Made by a program: the position numbers and the translations under genes. DNA of 42,107 bases from an uncultured Clostridia bacterium. GTDB taxonomy: Bacteria; Bacillota; Clostridia; HGM11327. The stretch spans positions 1 through 42,107 of the forward strand of contig CAMEIT010000016.1 in assembly GCA_945918795.1 (NCBI GenBank). The letters run 5' to 3'. The notes beneath the pieces were generated by a model that made no database searches, was not told the origin of the DNA, and was given only the letters and a program-made list of their open reading frames with translations. Shown here one piece after another: positions 1-6,622 of the stretch (positions are counted from its first letter, which is position 1; each line of letters begins with the position of its first letter).

Positions 1-957
1 CGTGACCCCTTCGGCCTGATTCCCGTGGCTCTCGGTCATGAGGGAACGGGCGAGATCGTAAAAATGGGTAAGGACGTCAAGACAGACAGCGCAGGAAAGC
101 CGCTTGCTGTCGGAGATAAAGTTGTTACCTGCATGATATTCAAGGATAATCCGGATATAACGATGTTTGACCTTAACAAGCAGAACGTCGGCGGAGCAGA
201 TGTTTACGGACTTTTGCCGGACGATGACGTTCACCTTAACGGATGGTTCTCTGATTACATAATAGTACGTAAAGGTTCGACTATATTCAATGTAAGCGAC
301 CTTGACCTTGACAGCAGAATACTCATAGAACCGTGTGCGGTACTTATTCATGCTGTTGAGAGAGCAAAAACGACTGGAATACTCAGATTCAACTCACGTG
401 TTGCGGTACAGGGCTGCGGACCTATCGGTCTTATCTGCATTGCCGTATTGCGCACAATGGGTATTGAGAACATAGTCGCTGTTGACGGAAATGAAAAGCG
501 TCTTGCGTTTGCAAAGGAAATGGGAGCAGATAAGTCCGTTAACTTCAAGAACACAAACGGAATTGAAGAGCTTACTCAGGCTGTCAAGGACGCGTTCGGA
601 GGACATTTTGCCGACTTTGCTTTCCAGTGTACAGGCTCGCCTGTGGCACATTCGAACATTTATAAGTTCATACGCAACGGCGGCGGTCTTTGTGAGCTTG
701 GGTTCTTTATCAACGGCGGAGACGCAACAATCAATCCGCACTTTGATATATGCTCAAAGGAAATCACAACTGTCGGCTCATGGGTTTATACACTTCGTGA
801 TTATGCTACGACTTTTGACTTTCTCAAGAGAGCAAAAGCAATCGGATTGCCTATGCAGAAGCTTATAACACATAAGTTCGCACTTAAGGATATAAACGAG
901 GCGCTTCAGACAAATCTTCGCATGGAAGGTCTGAAGATAGCCATTGTAAACAAGTAA
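1..957 (+). CDS. Zinc-dependent MDR alcohol/polyol dehydrogenase, 5' end cut by window edge
   Basis: The frame is open from base 1, so the N-terminus lies outside the window; a GTG at 25 is internal, not the start. The visible part has the GHE motif that supplies catalytic-zinc ligands in medium-chain dehydrogenases, then an EPCAVLIHAV segment (the conserved Glu-Pro region before the nucleotide domain) and a Rossmann fold with GCGPIGL. The family oxidises alcohols or polyols, or reduces aldehydes or ketones, with NAD(P). The four-cysteine structural-zinc loop usual in this family is absent: the segment after the GHE domain has no Cys cluster. It sits 22 nt before the first shell gene and shares its direction, so it is probably a cargo enzyme of the microcompartment. 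The substrate cannot be told. Confidence 0.85.
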   Translation, partial: RDPFGLIPVALGHEGTGEIVKMGKDVKTDSAGKPLAVGDKVVTCMIFKDNPDITMFDLNKQNVGGADVYGLLPDDDVHLNGWFSDYIIVRKGSTIFNVSDLDLDSRILIEPCAVLIHAVERAKTTGILRFNSRVAVQGCGPIGLICIAVLRTMGIENIVAVDGNEKRLAFAKEMGADKSVNFKNTNGIEELTQAVKDAFGGHFADFAFQCTGSPVAHSNIYKFIRNGGGLCELGFFINGGDATINPHFDICSKEITTVGSWVYTLRDYATTFDFLKRAKAIGLPMQKLITHKFALKDINEALQTNLRMEGLKIAIVNK

Positions 958-979
958 TACTAAAAAGGATAAGTAGAAT

Positions 980-1294
980 ATGAATTCTGCGGCAGGCTTG
1001 ATAGAGGTTTACGGACTTGTTGCGGCATTCGCGGCATGCGACGCAGGGTGCAAGGCGGCAAACGTAACGGTTGAGACATTTGATAAAAATAAACCGGGCA
1101 ATCCGGATTCGCTGGATGTACCGCTCATTGTATTGGTAAAATTCAGAGGAAGCGTCGAAGATGTGACGGCGGCTTTGGAGGCAGCCGAAGCGGAAGCAAA
1201 CCGTATTTCGGGAGTCGTATCAAAGCACGTAATCGCAAACGTGACGGAAGGCGCAGACAAAATGATGAAGCTTAATGCTTTTGATAAAAATTAA
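980..1294 (+). CDS. BMC-domain microcompartment shell protein (BMC-H, divergent)
   Basis: A 104-residue protein made of one BMC fold (PF00936 type). It opens with GLIEVYGLVAAFAACDAGCKAANV, split here as GLIEVYGLVAAF and AACDAGCKAANV, and ends with the HVIAN element. Such proteins form hexameric tiles of the polyhedral shell. It is less like PduA than its neighbours: the strand-loop region that should hold the KIGSG pore motif is replaced by a longer loop containing NKPGNPDSL, so pore size and chemistry probably differ. An AAAGGAT ribosome binding site lies about 10 nt before the ATG. It is the first shell gene in the visible operon. Confidence 0.85.
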   Translation: MNSAAGLIEVYGLVAAFAACDAGCKAANVTVETFDKNKPGNPDSLDVPLIVLVKFRGSVEDVTAALEAAEAEANRISGVVSKHVIANVTEGADKMMKLNAFDKN

Positions 1295-1328
1295 AAAAAA
1301 ATTTGTAAATATAACGGAGGAAGTTATT

Positions 1329-1604
1329 ATGGCACAGGAAGCACTCGGAATGATTGAGACAAGAGGTCTTGTTGCAGCTATTGAAGCTGCTGATGCAATG
1401 GTTAAATCTGCTGAGGTTGTTCTTATCGGAACAGAAAAAATCGGTTCAGGTCTTGTATCTGTAATGGTACGCGGAGATGTTGGCGCAGTTAAGTCTGCAG
1501 TTGAGAGCGGTTCTGCCGCAGCGGCAAGACTCGGCGAGGTTATTGCTACACACGTGATACCGAGACCGCACGCTGACGTTGAAAAGATTCTCCCGAAACT
1601 TTAA
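1329..1604 (+). CDS. Hexameric microcompartment shell protein, PduA/EutM-like
   Basis: A 91-residue canonical BMC-H protein. The ATG at 1329 is chosen because CGGAGGAAG lies just upstream; a frame extending back to 1275 overlaps the previous gene and has no support. It starts MAQEALGMIETRGLVAAIEA and carries the pore motif KIGSG with Lys37 and Ser40, the positions known in PduA to face the hexamer contact and the central pore. The end has HVIPRPH, also family-typical. It should be one of the major facet proteins. It is about 90% identical to the protein at 2026-2304 (9 differences over 91 residues). Confidence 0.92.
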   Translation: MAQEALGMIETRGLVAAIEAADAMVKSAEVVLIGTEKIGSGLVSVMVRGDVGAVKSAVESGSAAAARLGEVIATHVIPRPHADVEKILPKL

Positions 1605-4712: not shown

Positions 4713-4724
4713 TAGTACAGCGTT

Positions 4725-5483
4725 ATGCTCCCTATTGAAAGACGAAATGAGATACTGTCAAAGCTTATGCTTGACGGGAAAGTAATAGTCAGCGATCTCA
4801 GCTTGCTTTATGATGTGACGGAAGAAACGATAAGGCGAGATCTTGATAAGCTCGAAAAGGAAGGCCTTGCAAAGAAAACGTACGGCGGCGCGGTAAAAAC
4901 GGACAATCTTAATGTTGACCTGCCATATACGATAAGAAAGCAGACAAATGTTGACGGAAAAAAGTATATTGCGGAAATAATAGGCAGTCAGATAGAAGAT
5001 GGGGCGCACGTGCTTCTTGATTCAAGCACAACGGCTCTGTTTACCGTGAAAACGATATATAATCGCAGTAACATAACGCTGATAACAAATTCTGTGGAGA
5101 TACTTGTTGATTCGCCTGTCAAGAATGATTGGAAGATTATTTCGACAGGAGGAGAACTCATTCAGTCATCGCTGTCTTTGGCAGGGCAGAGGGCGGAAAA
5201 TGTGATAACATCATATCATGCGGATATTGCGGTAATTTCATGTAAGGGCATAGATATGCAGACGGGGCTTACAGATACAAGCGACCAGAACGCACAAATA
5301 AAAAAGGCGTTCATAAAATCAGCCAAAAGAGTAATGCTTGGCGTTGATAGCTCCAAATTCGACAAGATATCGTTTGTGAGATTCTCTGACTTTGACGGCA
5401 TTACTGCGGTTATAACCGATAAAGAACCGTCGGAAGCATGGAAGAGATTTTTCAGAGAAAGAAATATTGACCTTTATTTTTAA
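4725..5483 (+). CDS. DeoR/GlpR-family transcriptional regulator of the BMC operon
   Basis: A 252-residue protein. The N-terminal winged helix-turn-helix (residues 1-57) starts LPIERRNEILSKL and has the DeoR signature VTEETIRRDLDKLEKEGL. The C-terminal DeoRC sensor domain resembles a sugar-phosphate isomerase fold, with DSSTTALF and a late GVDSSKF segment. Family members bind phosphorylated sugars or related intermediates and are usually repressors, so the compartment's inducer may be a sugar phosphate or a breakdown product; that is inference. It lies inside the operon, 12 nt after pduT and 11 nt before the dehydrogenase. No convincing Shine-Dalgarno precedes ATG 4725, which suggests coupling to pduT translation. 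Confidence 0.88.
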   Translation: MLPIERRNEILSKLMLDGKVIVSDLSLLYDVTEETIRRDLDKLEKEGLAKKTYGGAVKTDNLNVDLPYTIRKQTNVDGKKYIAEIIGSQIEDGAHVLLDSSTTALFTVKTIYNRSNITLITNSVEILVDSPVKNDWKIISTGGELIQSSLSLAGQRAENVITSYHADIAVISCKGIDMQTGLTDTSDQNAQIKKAFIKSAKRVMLGVDSSKFDKISFVRFSDFDGITAVITDKEPSEAWKRFFRERNIDLYF

Positions 5484-5494
5484 GAGGATATTCA

Positions 5495-6622
5495 ATGCAG
5501 AAATTCAAAATCAGTACGGAAGTTTGCTTCGGGAAAGGCGCACTTTCGGCGCTTGAAACGATAAATGCAGAAAATGCGGTAATTTTTACAGACGCTTTTC
5601 TGAAAAAATCCGGAACTGCTGACAAAATAGCCGGATTTATGAAAAATTGTGCGCATATAAGCGTATATTCCGATATAAAACCGGATCCTCCGGTAGAGCT
5701 TATTGCAAACGCGCTTGATTTTCTGCTCAAGGCAAACGCAGACGTTGTTGTTGCCTTGGGAGGCGGTTCTTCTATTGACGCCGCAAAATCGACGGTTTTG
5801 ATAGCACGTAAGCAGACGGGAAAAGATTTGCCTTTGATTGCAGTACCTACCACGAGCGGCACAGGCTCTGAAGTAACTTCTTTTGCTGTAATAACCGATA
5901 AAGATGCAGGTGTAAAGTATCCGCTTGTTTCGGATGACCTTCTCCCTGTGAAGGCAATACTTGCAGGAGAGCTTGTGGCAAGCGTACCTCCTCAGATTAC
6001 GGCAGATACGGGCTTTGATGTGCTAACGCACGCACTTGAAGCATATATTTCACTTCAGGCAAACGATTTTTCAGATGCTCTTGCGGAAAAGTCCCTTGAA
6101 ATTGCGTTTGAGTATCTCCCCGAAGCGTATAAACACGGTGATAACGAGCTTGCACGCGAAAAAATGCACACAGCATCGTGCCTTGCGGGAATGTCTTTCA
6201 ATGCGGTAAGTCTCGGCGTCAATCATGGTATTGCTCATTCACTCGGCGCACATTTCCATATACCGCACGGACGCGCAAACGGTATGCTTTTGCCTTACGT
6301 TATGTGGTACAATGCCGGGCTTGACGGAAAAGTTGATGAAAGAACAGCCGTAAAGCTCGCTAAAATTGCAAAGCTTATAGGATTGCCGGCATTCAATTCA
6401 AAAGCCGGAGCACAAAATCTTGTCAATAAGCTCAAGCAGATGCAGAGGGAGCTCGGAATACCGCTTACATTAAAGGATGCAGGCGTTGATAAACAGTCAT
6501 ATGAGAGCGTCAAGGCTCATATAATTAAGAGCGCACTCAATGATGCTTGCACGGCTACAAATCCGAGAAAGCTCAAAGCACACGATATTGACGTGATTTT
6601 AAGTAATATAGCAAAATTTTAA
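5495..6622 (+). CDS. Iron-containing alcohol dehydrogenase, PduQ/EutG-like
   Basis: A 375-residue group III dehydrogenase, close to PduQ in length. It shows GGGSSIDAAK for NAD binding, PTTSGTGSEVT, and the metal ligands in TGFDVLTHALEA, NHGIAHSLGAH and HIPHGRANG (one Asp, three His). The usual role in a metabolosome is to reduce the aldehyde to alcohol and regenerate NAD+ inside the shell. No N-terminal encapsulation helix is evident, so recruitment would be through other contacts. It starts 11 nt after the regulator with AGAGGA upstream and is the last gene of the operon; a clear terminator follows. No acylating aldehyde dehydrogenase is in the window. Confidence 0.92.
   Translation: MQKFKISTEVCFGKGALSALETINAENAVIFTDAFLKKSGTADKIAGFMKNCAHISVYSDIKPDPPVELIANALDFLLKANADVVVALGGGSSIDAAKSTVLIARKQTGKDLPLIAVPTTSGTGSEVTSFAVITDKDAGVKYPLVSDDLLPVKAILAGELVASVPPQITADTGFDVLTHALEAYISLQANDFSDALAEKSLEIAFEYLPEAYKHGDNELAREKMHTASCLAGMSFNAVSLGVNHGIAHSLGAHFHIPHGRANGMLLPYVMWYNAGLDGKVDERTAVKLAKIAKLIGLPAFNSKAGAQNLVNKLKQMQRELGIPLTLKDAGVDKQSYESVKAHIIKSALNDACTATNPRKLKAHDIDVILSNIAKF

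Follow-up and report, generated by a model that had tools for sequence, protein, structure and literature searches.

Gene content of the locus

The DNA considered here, hereafter the window, comprises bases 1-42107 of contig C16 (CAMEIT010000016.1) from the genome of an uncultured Clostridia bacterium and starts at the contig's first base. Positions 1-6622 carry part of a bacterial microcompartment (BMC) operon, in which an earlier note, made from the letters alone, had recognized a zinc-type medium-chain dehydrogenase/reductase (MDR), four BMC-H shell proteins, one BMC-P vertex protein, PduS, PduT with a cysteine at residue 38, a DeoR-family regulator and an iron-type alcohol dehydrogenase (Fe-ADH). 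Pfam profiles and coordinates bear this gene set out: all ten genes lie on the + strand at the positions previously given, each with a match far above chance in the Pfam profile search. For all ten, NCBIfam models stay below their curated cut-offs.

1..957, + strand: zinc-type MDR dehydrogenase, truncated at its 5' end where the contig stops (PF00107, E 2.5e-24; PF08240, E 8.9e-06, in the cut N-terminal part)
980..1294, + strand: BMC-H shell protein 1 (PF00936, 70 bits)
1329..1604, + strand: BMC-H shell protein 2, PduA/EutM-like (PF00936, 99.6 bits)
1626..2006, + strand: BMC-H shell protein 3, whose translation shows a basic tail at the C-terminus (PF00936, 75 bits)
2026..2304, + strand: BMC-H shell protein 4, PduA/EutM-like (PF00936, 107 bits)
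2305..2518: gap of 214 bases, the site of PduL in the aldehyde dehydrogenase (AldDH)-bearing relatives L046, L099 and Clostridium phytofermentans
2519..2788, + strand: BMC-P (EutN/CcmL) vertex protein (PF03319, 107 bits)
2785..4125, + strand: PduS flavin/iron-sulfur oxidoreductase (PF01512, PF10531, PF13534, PF13375)
4164..4712, + strand: PduT tandem-BMC shell protein with pore Cys38 (two PF00936 stretches)
4725..5483, + strand: DeoR-family regulator (PF08220, PF00455)
5495..6622, + strand: Fe-ADH (PF00465, PF25137), starting 11 bases past the DeoR gene

The operon is truncated inside the MDR gene because contig C16 ends there. Homology places the start of the second BMC-H gene probably at 1329 rather than at the listed open reading frame start of 1275. 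The window's own genome (122 contigs) contains six PF00936 matches, every one in this cluster. An Rfam search of positions 1-8500 matched no structured-RNA family in or near the operon. Promoter and terminator scans, which returned 25 promoter-like sites where 14.0 were expected and seven terminator-like sites where 7.2 were expected, were not used.

Assignment to GRM5

The earlier note could name no locus type for an MDR combined with PduS/PduT and a DeoR regulator. This mix is, however, already known, having been published for GRM5, one of the glycyl-radical enzyme microcompartment (GRM) types and the one that handles fucose and rhamnose in C. phytofermentans. In the literature, cited throughout from excerpts, GRM5 is given a 1,2-propanediol dehydratase of the glycyl-radical enzyme (GRE) class, a class II aldolase (pfam00596) and an MDR (pfam00107/08240) labeled "lactaldehyde reductase", and both PduS and PduT occur in all 57 of its loci (PMC6325248); a DeoR regulator, PduS and DUF336 are also described for it (PMC4207490). 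An unknown locus type was ruled out on the basis of this gene mix. The window supplies the MDR, PduS, PduT and DeoR regulator of the GRM5 set and, as a feature of the metabolosome core, alcohol dehydrogenase (the Fe-ADH at 5495-6622 and the MDR).

The part of the operon lost at the contig end can be read in relatives, foremost in the other two genomes of the same genus, G001 (with locus L038) and G002, the window's own genome being G000. L038 holds a GRE (PF02901 and PF01228), a radical-SAM activase (PF04055), a PduU-like BMC protein, a PduV-EutP GTPase and a class II aldolase (PF00596), followed by an HbpS-like gene (PF03928), a full MDR and three BMC-H genes. The class II aldolase is present in L038 and in L040, both of the genus. 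Other genomes carry the complete locus on one contig (L042, L076), including, for L076, the GRE and activase. Against the solved diol dehydratase 5i2a/5i2g, the L038 GRE scores 1265 bits along nearly its full length. We take 5i2a to be the enzyme of Roseburia inulinivorans, and what we take to be the cysteine and glycyl-radical motifs are visible in its alignment with the L038 protein. The best solved match of the L038 aldolase is fuculose-phosphate aldolase (E 2.1e-27). The window's own genome encodes L-rhamnose isomerase (RhaA, split into two pieces, each on its own contig) and has a reading frame bearing the C-terminal domain of L-fucose isomerase (FucI); both sugars could therefore feed the locus.

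Gene order points the same way. The C. phytofermentans locus Cphy_1174-1187 runs GRE, activase, PduU, FucA, PduP, MDR, three BMC-H, PduL, PduN, PduS, PduT, DeoR (Petit 2013, PMC3557285). The window shares with it the succession of MDR (1179), BMC-H genes, BMC-P, PduS, PduT and DeoR, and L038 shares the upstream GRE, activase, PduU-like gene and aldolase. The window differs in being without the PduP-type AldDH (1178) and PduL (1183), in having four BMC-H genes instead of three, and in the Fe-ADH added after DeoR. L038 differs in its extra PduV-EutP and HbpS-like (DUF336-type) genes; R. inulinivorans is itself reported with pduV- and pduO-like genes (PMC3557285).

A tree of joined MDR, PduS, PduT and BMC-P sequences places the window inside the GRM5 set. 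Judged by gene content, gene order and the same-genus relatives, the window likely represents the downstream half of a GRM5 operon. As far as can be told from the genes present, the earlier proposal of a redox-active metabolosome, perhaps with a sugar-derived substrate, holds. Of the upstream enzymes that it suggested seeking, the GRE and the class II aldolase are present in same-genus relatives, but PduP and PduL were not found in the three draft genomes of the genus. The known GRM locus that it had set against its own idea is likewise what we found, although not in the form of an ordinary GRM5, AldDH and PduL not having been found.

AldDH and PduL in the genus

The earlier note had placed an aldehyde dehydrogenase and a phosphotransacylase outside the window. 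They are indeed not within it, but neither was found elsewhere in the three draft genomes of the genus, and within these drafts their absence is supported. For the microcompartment AldDH this holds for the L042 AldDH as query (E 1e-40 and 1e-3) and for PF00171 at E 0.001; for PduL it holds for PF06130 and equally for a protein query, other phosphotransacylase families (PF01515) not having been searched. A search for PduT in 99 whole genomes (the window's own and relatives) gave matches in 34, of which 29 exceeded 100 bits, and all 26 genomes of the latter group outside the genus contain both PduL (PF06130) and a microcompartment AldDH. These AldDHs measure some 430-510 aa; two are split over contigs (G077, G031) and two are just 29-30% identical to the query (G055, G004). 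Within the genus, the L042 query matches AdhE-length proteins of G000 and G002 at 31-32% identity, in open frames of 723 aa, truncated where the contig stops, and of 873 aa, the remaining matches being weak and of about 425 aa. PF00171 found in G000 an AdhE-length protein and a weak 423-aa match, and nothing else.

The locus itself is equally silent. Where contigs of the genus reach its ends (both in G001, the right end in G002 and in the window), no AldDH and no PduL was found. PduL lies between BMC-H and BMC-P in L046 and L099; the corresponding gap at 2305-2518 was rejected as a hiding place, as it held no remnant and returned no PduL match at E up to 5. Because AldDH and PduL were not found in the genus, we file the locus as a GRM5 variant and not as a complete metabolosome.

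The gene mix being known, what sets this case apart is a GRM5 form without AldDH that is found repeatedly. According to the catalogue paper (PMC8217296, excerpt), the pfam00171 aldehyde dehydrogenase is ubiquitous in the core shared by many types of metabolosome. In open-licence PubMed Central we found no description of a GRM5 or other microcompartment without AldDH, which is not proof of absence from print.

AldDH-less loci beyond the genus

We surveyed the locus architecture of 99 sequences, namely 18, a further 80 and the window; the 80 are the best 80 of at least 500 confirmed relatives, and the survey is no census. A locus was called AldDH-less on one AldDH query, at E 1e-40 in the genus or 1e-30 in the six other genomes concerned, with PF00171 at E 0.001 as a second line of evidence. 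Outside the genus, another seven loci (L076, L111, L126, L128, L132, L134, L147) span everything from GRE to Fe-ADH on a single contig and contain neither AldDH nor PduL; they are flanked by 40-4324 bases before and 1169-5036 after. An eighth locus without AldDH, L121, is truncated at its left end.

In the genomes of L076, L121, L126, L132 and L134, a microcompartment AldDH was not found beyond AdhE-length matches (E 1e-30). The genome of L128 yielded neither a microcompartment AldDH nor a PF06130 protein. The supposition that every locus with Fe-ADH only belongs to an AldDH-less genome proved wrong, as the genomes of L111 and L147 keep a satellite: at L154:6864-9862 and L155:7612-10714, away from the GRM5 locus, lie an AldDH, a 220-aa BMC-H and a PduL. 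This arrangement is possibly a halfway state towards the loss of AldDH and PduL.

PduL-family proteins without an N-terminal extension are encoded at L156:4012-4665, L157:4489-5064, L158:~3996-4562, L159:~3230-3796, L160:4922-5506, L161:5527-6099 and L163:4893-5510. In the stretches read beside these genes no other microcompartment gene was recognized. Such extension-less proteins are probably a general phosphotransacylase in these Clostridia.

Distribution of the AldDH-less state on the tree

The tree of MDR, PduS, PduT and BMC-P has 78 rows. Excluded were L074, L080, L105, L107 and L115, which repeat L040, L042, L049, L043 and L054, as well as L054, which is cut after PduT. Pooling L037 with L038 and L039 with L040 (four contigs into two rows) gave 91 rows, from which 13 without PduS or PduT were dropped (L082, L084, L086, L096, L106, L117, L118, L120, L125, L129, L130, L137, L141). 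AldDH was left unscored in L075, L102 and L144, whose loci are cut.

Nine AldDH-less rows fall in three places: the window's genus with L076; L134, L132, L121 and L126; and L128, which sits beside the AldDH-bearing L099 and L123. Three is also the fewest changes with which the tree accommodates the AldDH-less state, and a more careful tree of 33 rows agrees with the three placements. Forcing the nine rows into one clade costs 41 log units (approximately unbiased test, p 0.025). A single loss of AldDH and PduL is therefore disfavored, though by a soft test, because a first tree had already been inspected when the AldDH-less group was named. L111 and L147 adjoin the window's clade with support 84/87. 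The tree itself is silent on loss or gain; loss is the simpler reading because AldDH lies within the locus in 64 of the 75 scored rows and in a satellite in two more. All nine AldDH-less rows have the Fe-ADH, as against 12 of the 66 others (Fisher 2.3e-6, ignoring kinship).

The dehydrogenases, PduS and PduT

Full-length copies elsewhere in the genus share 93% and 91% identity with the window's MDR. Measured against the L038 MDR, identities are 93% for the window, 80-94% for eleven other close copies, 61% for L051 and 54% for L052. Alignment by eye indicates that the full-length MDRs of the genus share a conserved, helix-like N-terminal extension of the encapsulation-peptide kind. Around positions 129-152 of alignment A1, the GRM5 MDRs are without a cysteine cluster that is still present in L051 and L052; we take this cluster to be of the structural-zinc type, and the structural zinc seems to have been lost in the GRM5 MDRs. 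Print disagrees on the role of the MDR, its counterpart Cphy_1179 being read as a propanol dehydrogenase (PMC3557285, excerpt) and the GRM5 MDR as a lactaldehyde reductase (PMC6325248, excerpt).

The closest solved chain to the Fe-ADH is the alcohol dehydrogenase domain of a bifunctional AdhE (3zdr, E 6.2e-94). A single Fe-ADH orthologue throughout the loci was ruled out, since L085, L140, L150 and L151 have a distant kind and L046 and L085 form long branches. In PduS, which matches RnfC in the PDB (E 9.5e-41), the glycine-rich motif and nine cysteines at 256-312 are invariant in 17 of 17 loci, AldDH-less ones included. Residue 38 of PduT is cysteine in all 17 aligned loci; its best solved relatives are of PduT type (3nwg, E 3.3e-41), with their cysteine aligned to Cys38.

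Comparison with other microcompartments

The 1,2-propanediol utilization (PDU) system shares with this locus the PduS/PduT pair, 1,2-propanediol chemistry and a PduQ-kind Fe-ADH; it differs in that a GRE here replaces the B12-dependent diol dehydratase, that an aldolase and the MDR are included, and that no PduP or PduL was found. The role of the PDU signature PduCDE is held by the GRE in the same-genus locus (no genome-wide PduCDE search was made). A DeoR regulator stands here in place of PocR (PMC3557285, excerpt). With the GRM5 of the GRM review the locus shares GRE and aldolase (in relatives), MDR, PduS and PduT, and it differs in that the core AldDH and phosphotransacylase were not found (PMC6325248, excerpt). 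Loci for BMCs of unknown function (BUF) also have no AldDH (PMC8217296, excerpt), whereas here signature enzyme and pathway are recognizable.

Proposed pathway and its alternatives

The genes suggest a pathway in which the class II aldolase would cleave the sugar phosphate into dihydroxyacetone phosphate (DHAP) and lactaldehyde, the MDR would reduce lactaldehyde to 1,2-propanediol, the GRE would dehydrate this to propionaldehyde, and the Fe-ADH (or the MDR) would yield 1-propanol; an added Fe-ADH would free the MDR for lactaldehyde. On balance we lean towards a GRM5 microcompartment, likely for fuculose- or rhamnulose-1-phosphate, in a lineage in which neither a microcompartment AldDH nor PduL was found, and in which propionaldehyde would go to 1-propanol and not also to propionate.

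With an AldDH, lactaldehyde reduction, which uses NADH, and propionaldehyde oxidation, which makes it, can balance inside the shell. Here, we infer a reductive mechanism: both dehydrogenase steps would use NADH, which no recognized gene of the locus would make. The compartment would then take up more electrons than it releases, acting as a net sink, and electrons would have to enter. They might do so via PduS, a flavin/iron-sulfur protein whose PDU homologue is NADH-reactive, and the PduT pore cluster; as the PduS motif and cysteines and the PduT Cys38 are kept, an inward relay is possible. The GRM review proposes instead electron export through PduT in PDU and reduction of the activase by PduS (PMC6325248, excerpt). 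By computation, the conversion of fucose (C6H12O5) to acetate, CO2 and 1-propanol balances exactly in its elements, and the balance holds because DHAP to acetate and CO2 yields reducing equivalents equal to the need of the two reductions.

Extending this, we tentatively suggest that several gut Clostridia lineages independently lost the oxidative half, leaving a purely reductive organelle with 1-propanol as electron sink and electrons moving inward via PduS/PduT, the reverse of the proposed PduT export. This wider claim is possible, but we would sooner doubt it than assert it.

A number of observations weigh against these interpretations. The deep branches that separate the AldDH-less groups have weak support. 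No N-terminal extension of the encapsulation kind is present on the Fe-ADH; alcohol dehydrogenases without an encapsulation peptide are reported to interact with AldDH (PMC6325248, excerpt), and this kind of partner was not found. Completeness is 94.8% for G000 and 78-79% for G001 and G002. In G000 the upstream half of this very operon is not assembled, the best match to a GRM5 GRE being 34% identical, and a satellite with AldDH and PduL could be unassembled too.

The last two points favor an ordinary GRM5 whose AldDH, BMC-H and PduL lie in a satellite missed by the draft assemblies, with propionaldehyde disproportionated as in C. phytofermentans. Just such a split, with AldDH, BMC-H and PduL on another contig, is what the L111 and L147 genomes show, and these two lie beside the window's clade. 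It would, however, have to have escaped detection in all three genomes of the genus, for both genes, and in all six other AldDH-less genomes, for AldDH, while both genes turn up without exception in the 26 comparable genomes, which are themselves drafts, 75-100% complete. We consider it improbable, if still a serious contender.

Further adverse points concern enzymes outside the locus. AdhE-length proteins occur in five of the nine AldDH-less genomes (G000, where it is cut by the contig end, G002, G099, G102, G104). An aldehyde dehydrogenase of another kind (PF00171, 280-300 bits) occurs in three of the nine, those of L076, L121 and L132 (G099, G103, G106), that of L132 forming part of an open frame of 883 aa. 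The genomes of L076, L121, L126, L132 and L134 (G099, G101, G103, G104, G106) each have one PF06130 protein, without an encapsulation-like extension because the nearest ATG stands three to five codons before the conserved body. With AdhE-length and other-kind enzymes in some genomes, propionaldehyde could be oxidized outside the shell, the oxidative branch being cytosolic and the locus sheltering the radical enzyme only. But AdhE-length matches are also common in AldDH-bearing genomes, so that AdhE does not stand out as a substitute; for G001 and G101, PF00171 gave just weak matches, 425 and 435 aa long; and shells are said to shield the cytosol from such intermediates (PMC8217296, excerpt). 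This explanation strikes us as unlikely.

A decaying remnant heading for loss might be suspected from two core genes absent without trace, but the remaining frames are open, the PduS and PduT cysteines invariant, the gene order shared, within the reach of the contigs, by all three genomes of the genus and by L076, and the AldDH-less state recurs in three places of the tree; we hold decay to be very improbable. Another locus type, be it B12-dependent PDU, ethanolamine utilization (EUT) or an AldDH-less BMC of unknown function, would accord with the occurrence of PduS/PduT in PDU and, lacking AldDH, with the BUF naming rule (PMC8217296, excerpt), but it is scarcely credible given the GRE, activase and class II aldolase of the same-genus locus and the position of the joined MDR, PduS, PduT and BMC-P within the GRM5 set.

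Close relatives that have the AldDH/PduL arm and others that lack it, all with the same kind of shell and signature enzyme, amount to a natural experiment. It asks what purpose a shell serves if no acyl-CoA is made inside and how NADH enters, as well as what PduS and PduT do in a B12-free organelle, which the GRM review lists as an open question (PMC6325248, excerpt). If true, the reductive pathway to 1-propanol predicts gut bacteria that turn fucose and rhamnose into propanol without propionate.

Further observations

In two GRM5-like loci, L153:5754-16990 and L137:1-9177, the FucA-type aldolase and PduL were not found; L137 is also without PduS. After DeoR at 17023-17964, L153 carries a fructose-bisphosphate-type aldolase (PF01116), perhaps an aldolase swap. 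Contigs C69, C76, C108 and C56 of G001 hold many GRE genes 27-34% identical to the diol dehydratase, five of them consecutive on C69. Just downstream of the operon, at 7444-8401 of the window, lie eight imperfect copies of a repeat of about 126 bases with a GC-rich palindrome.

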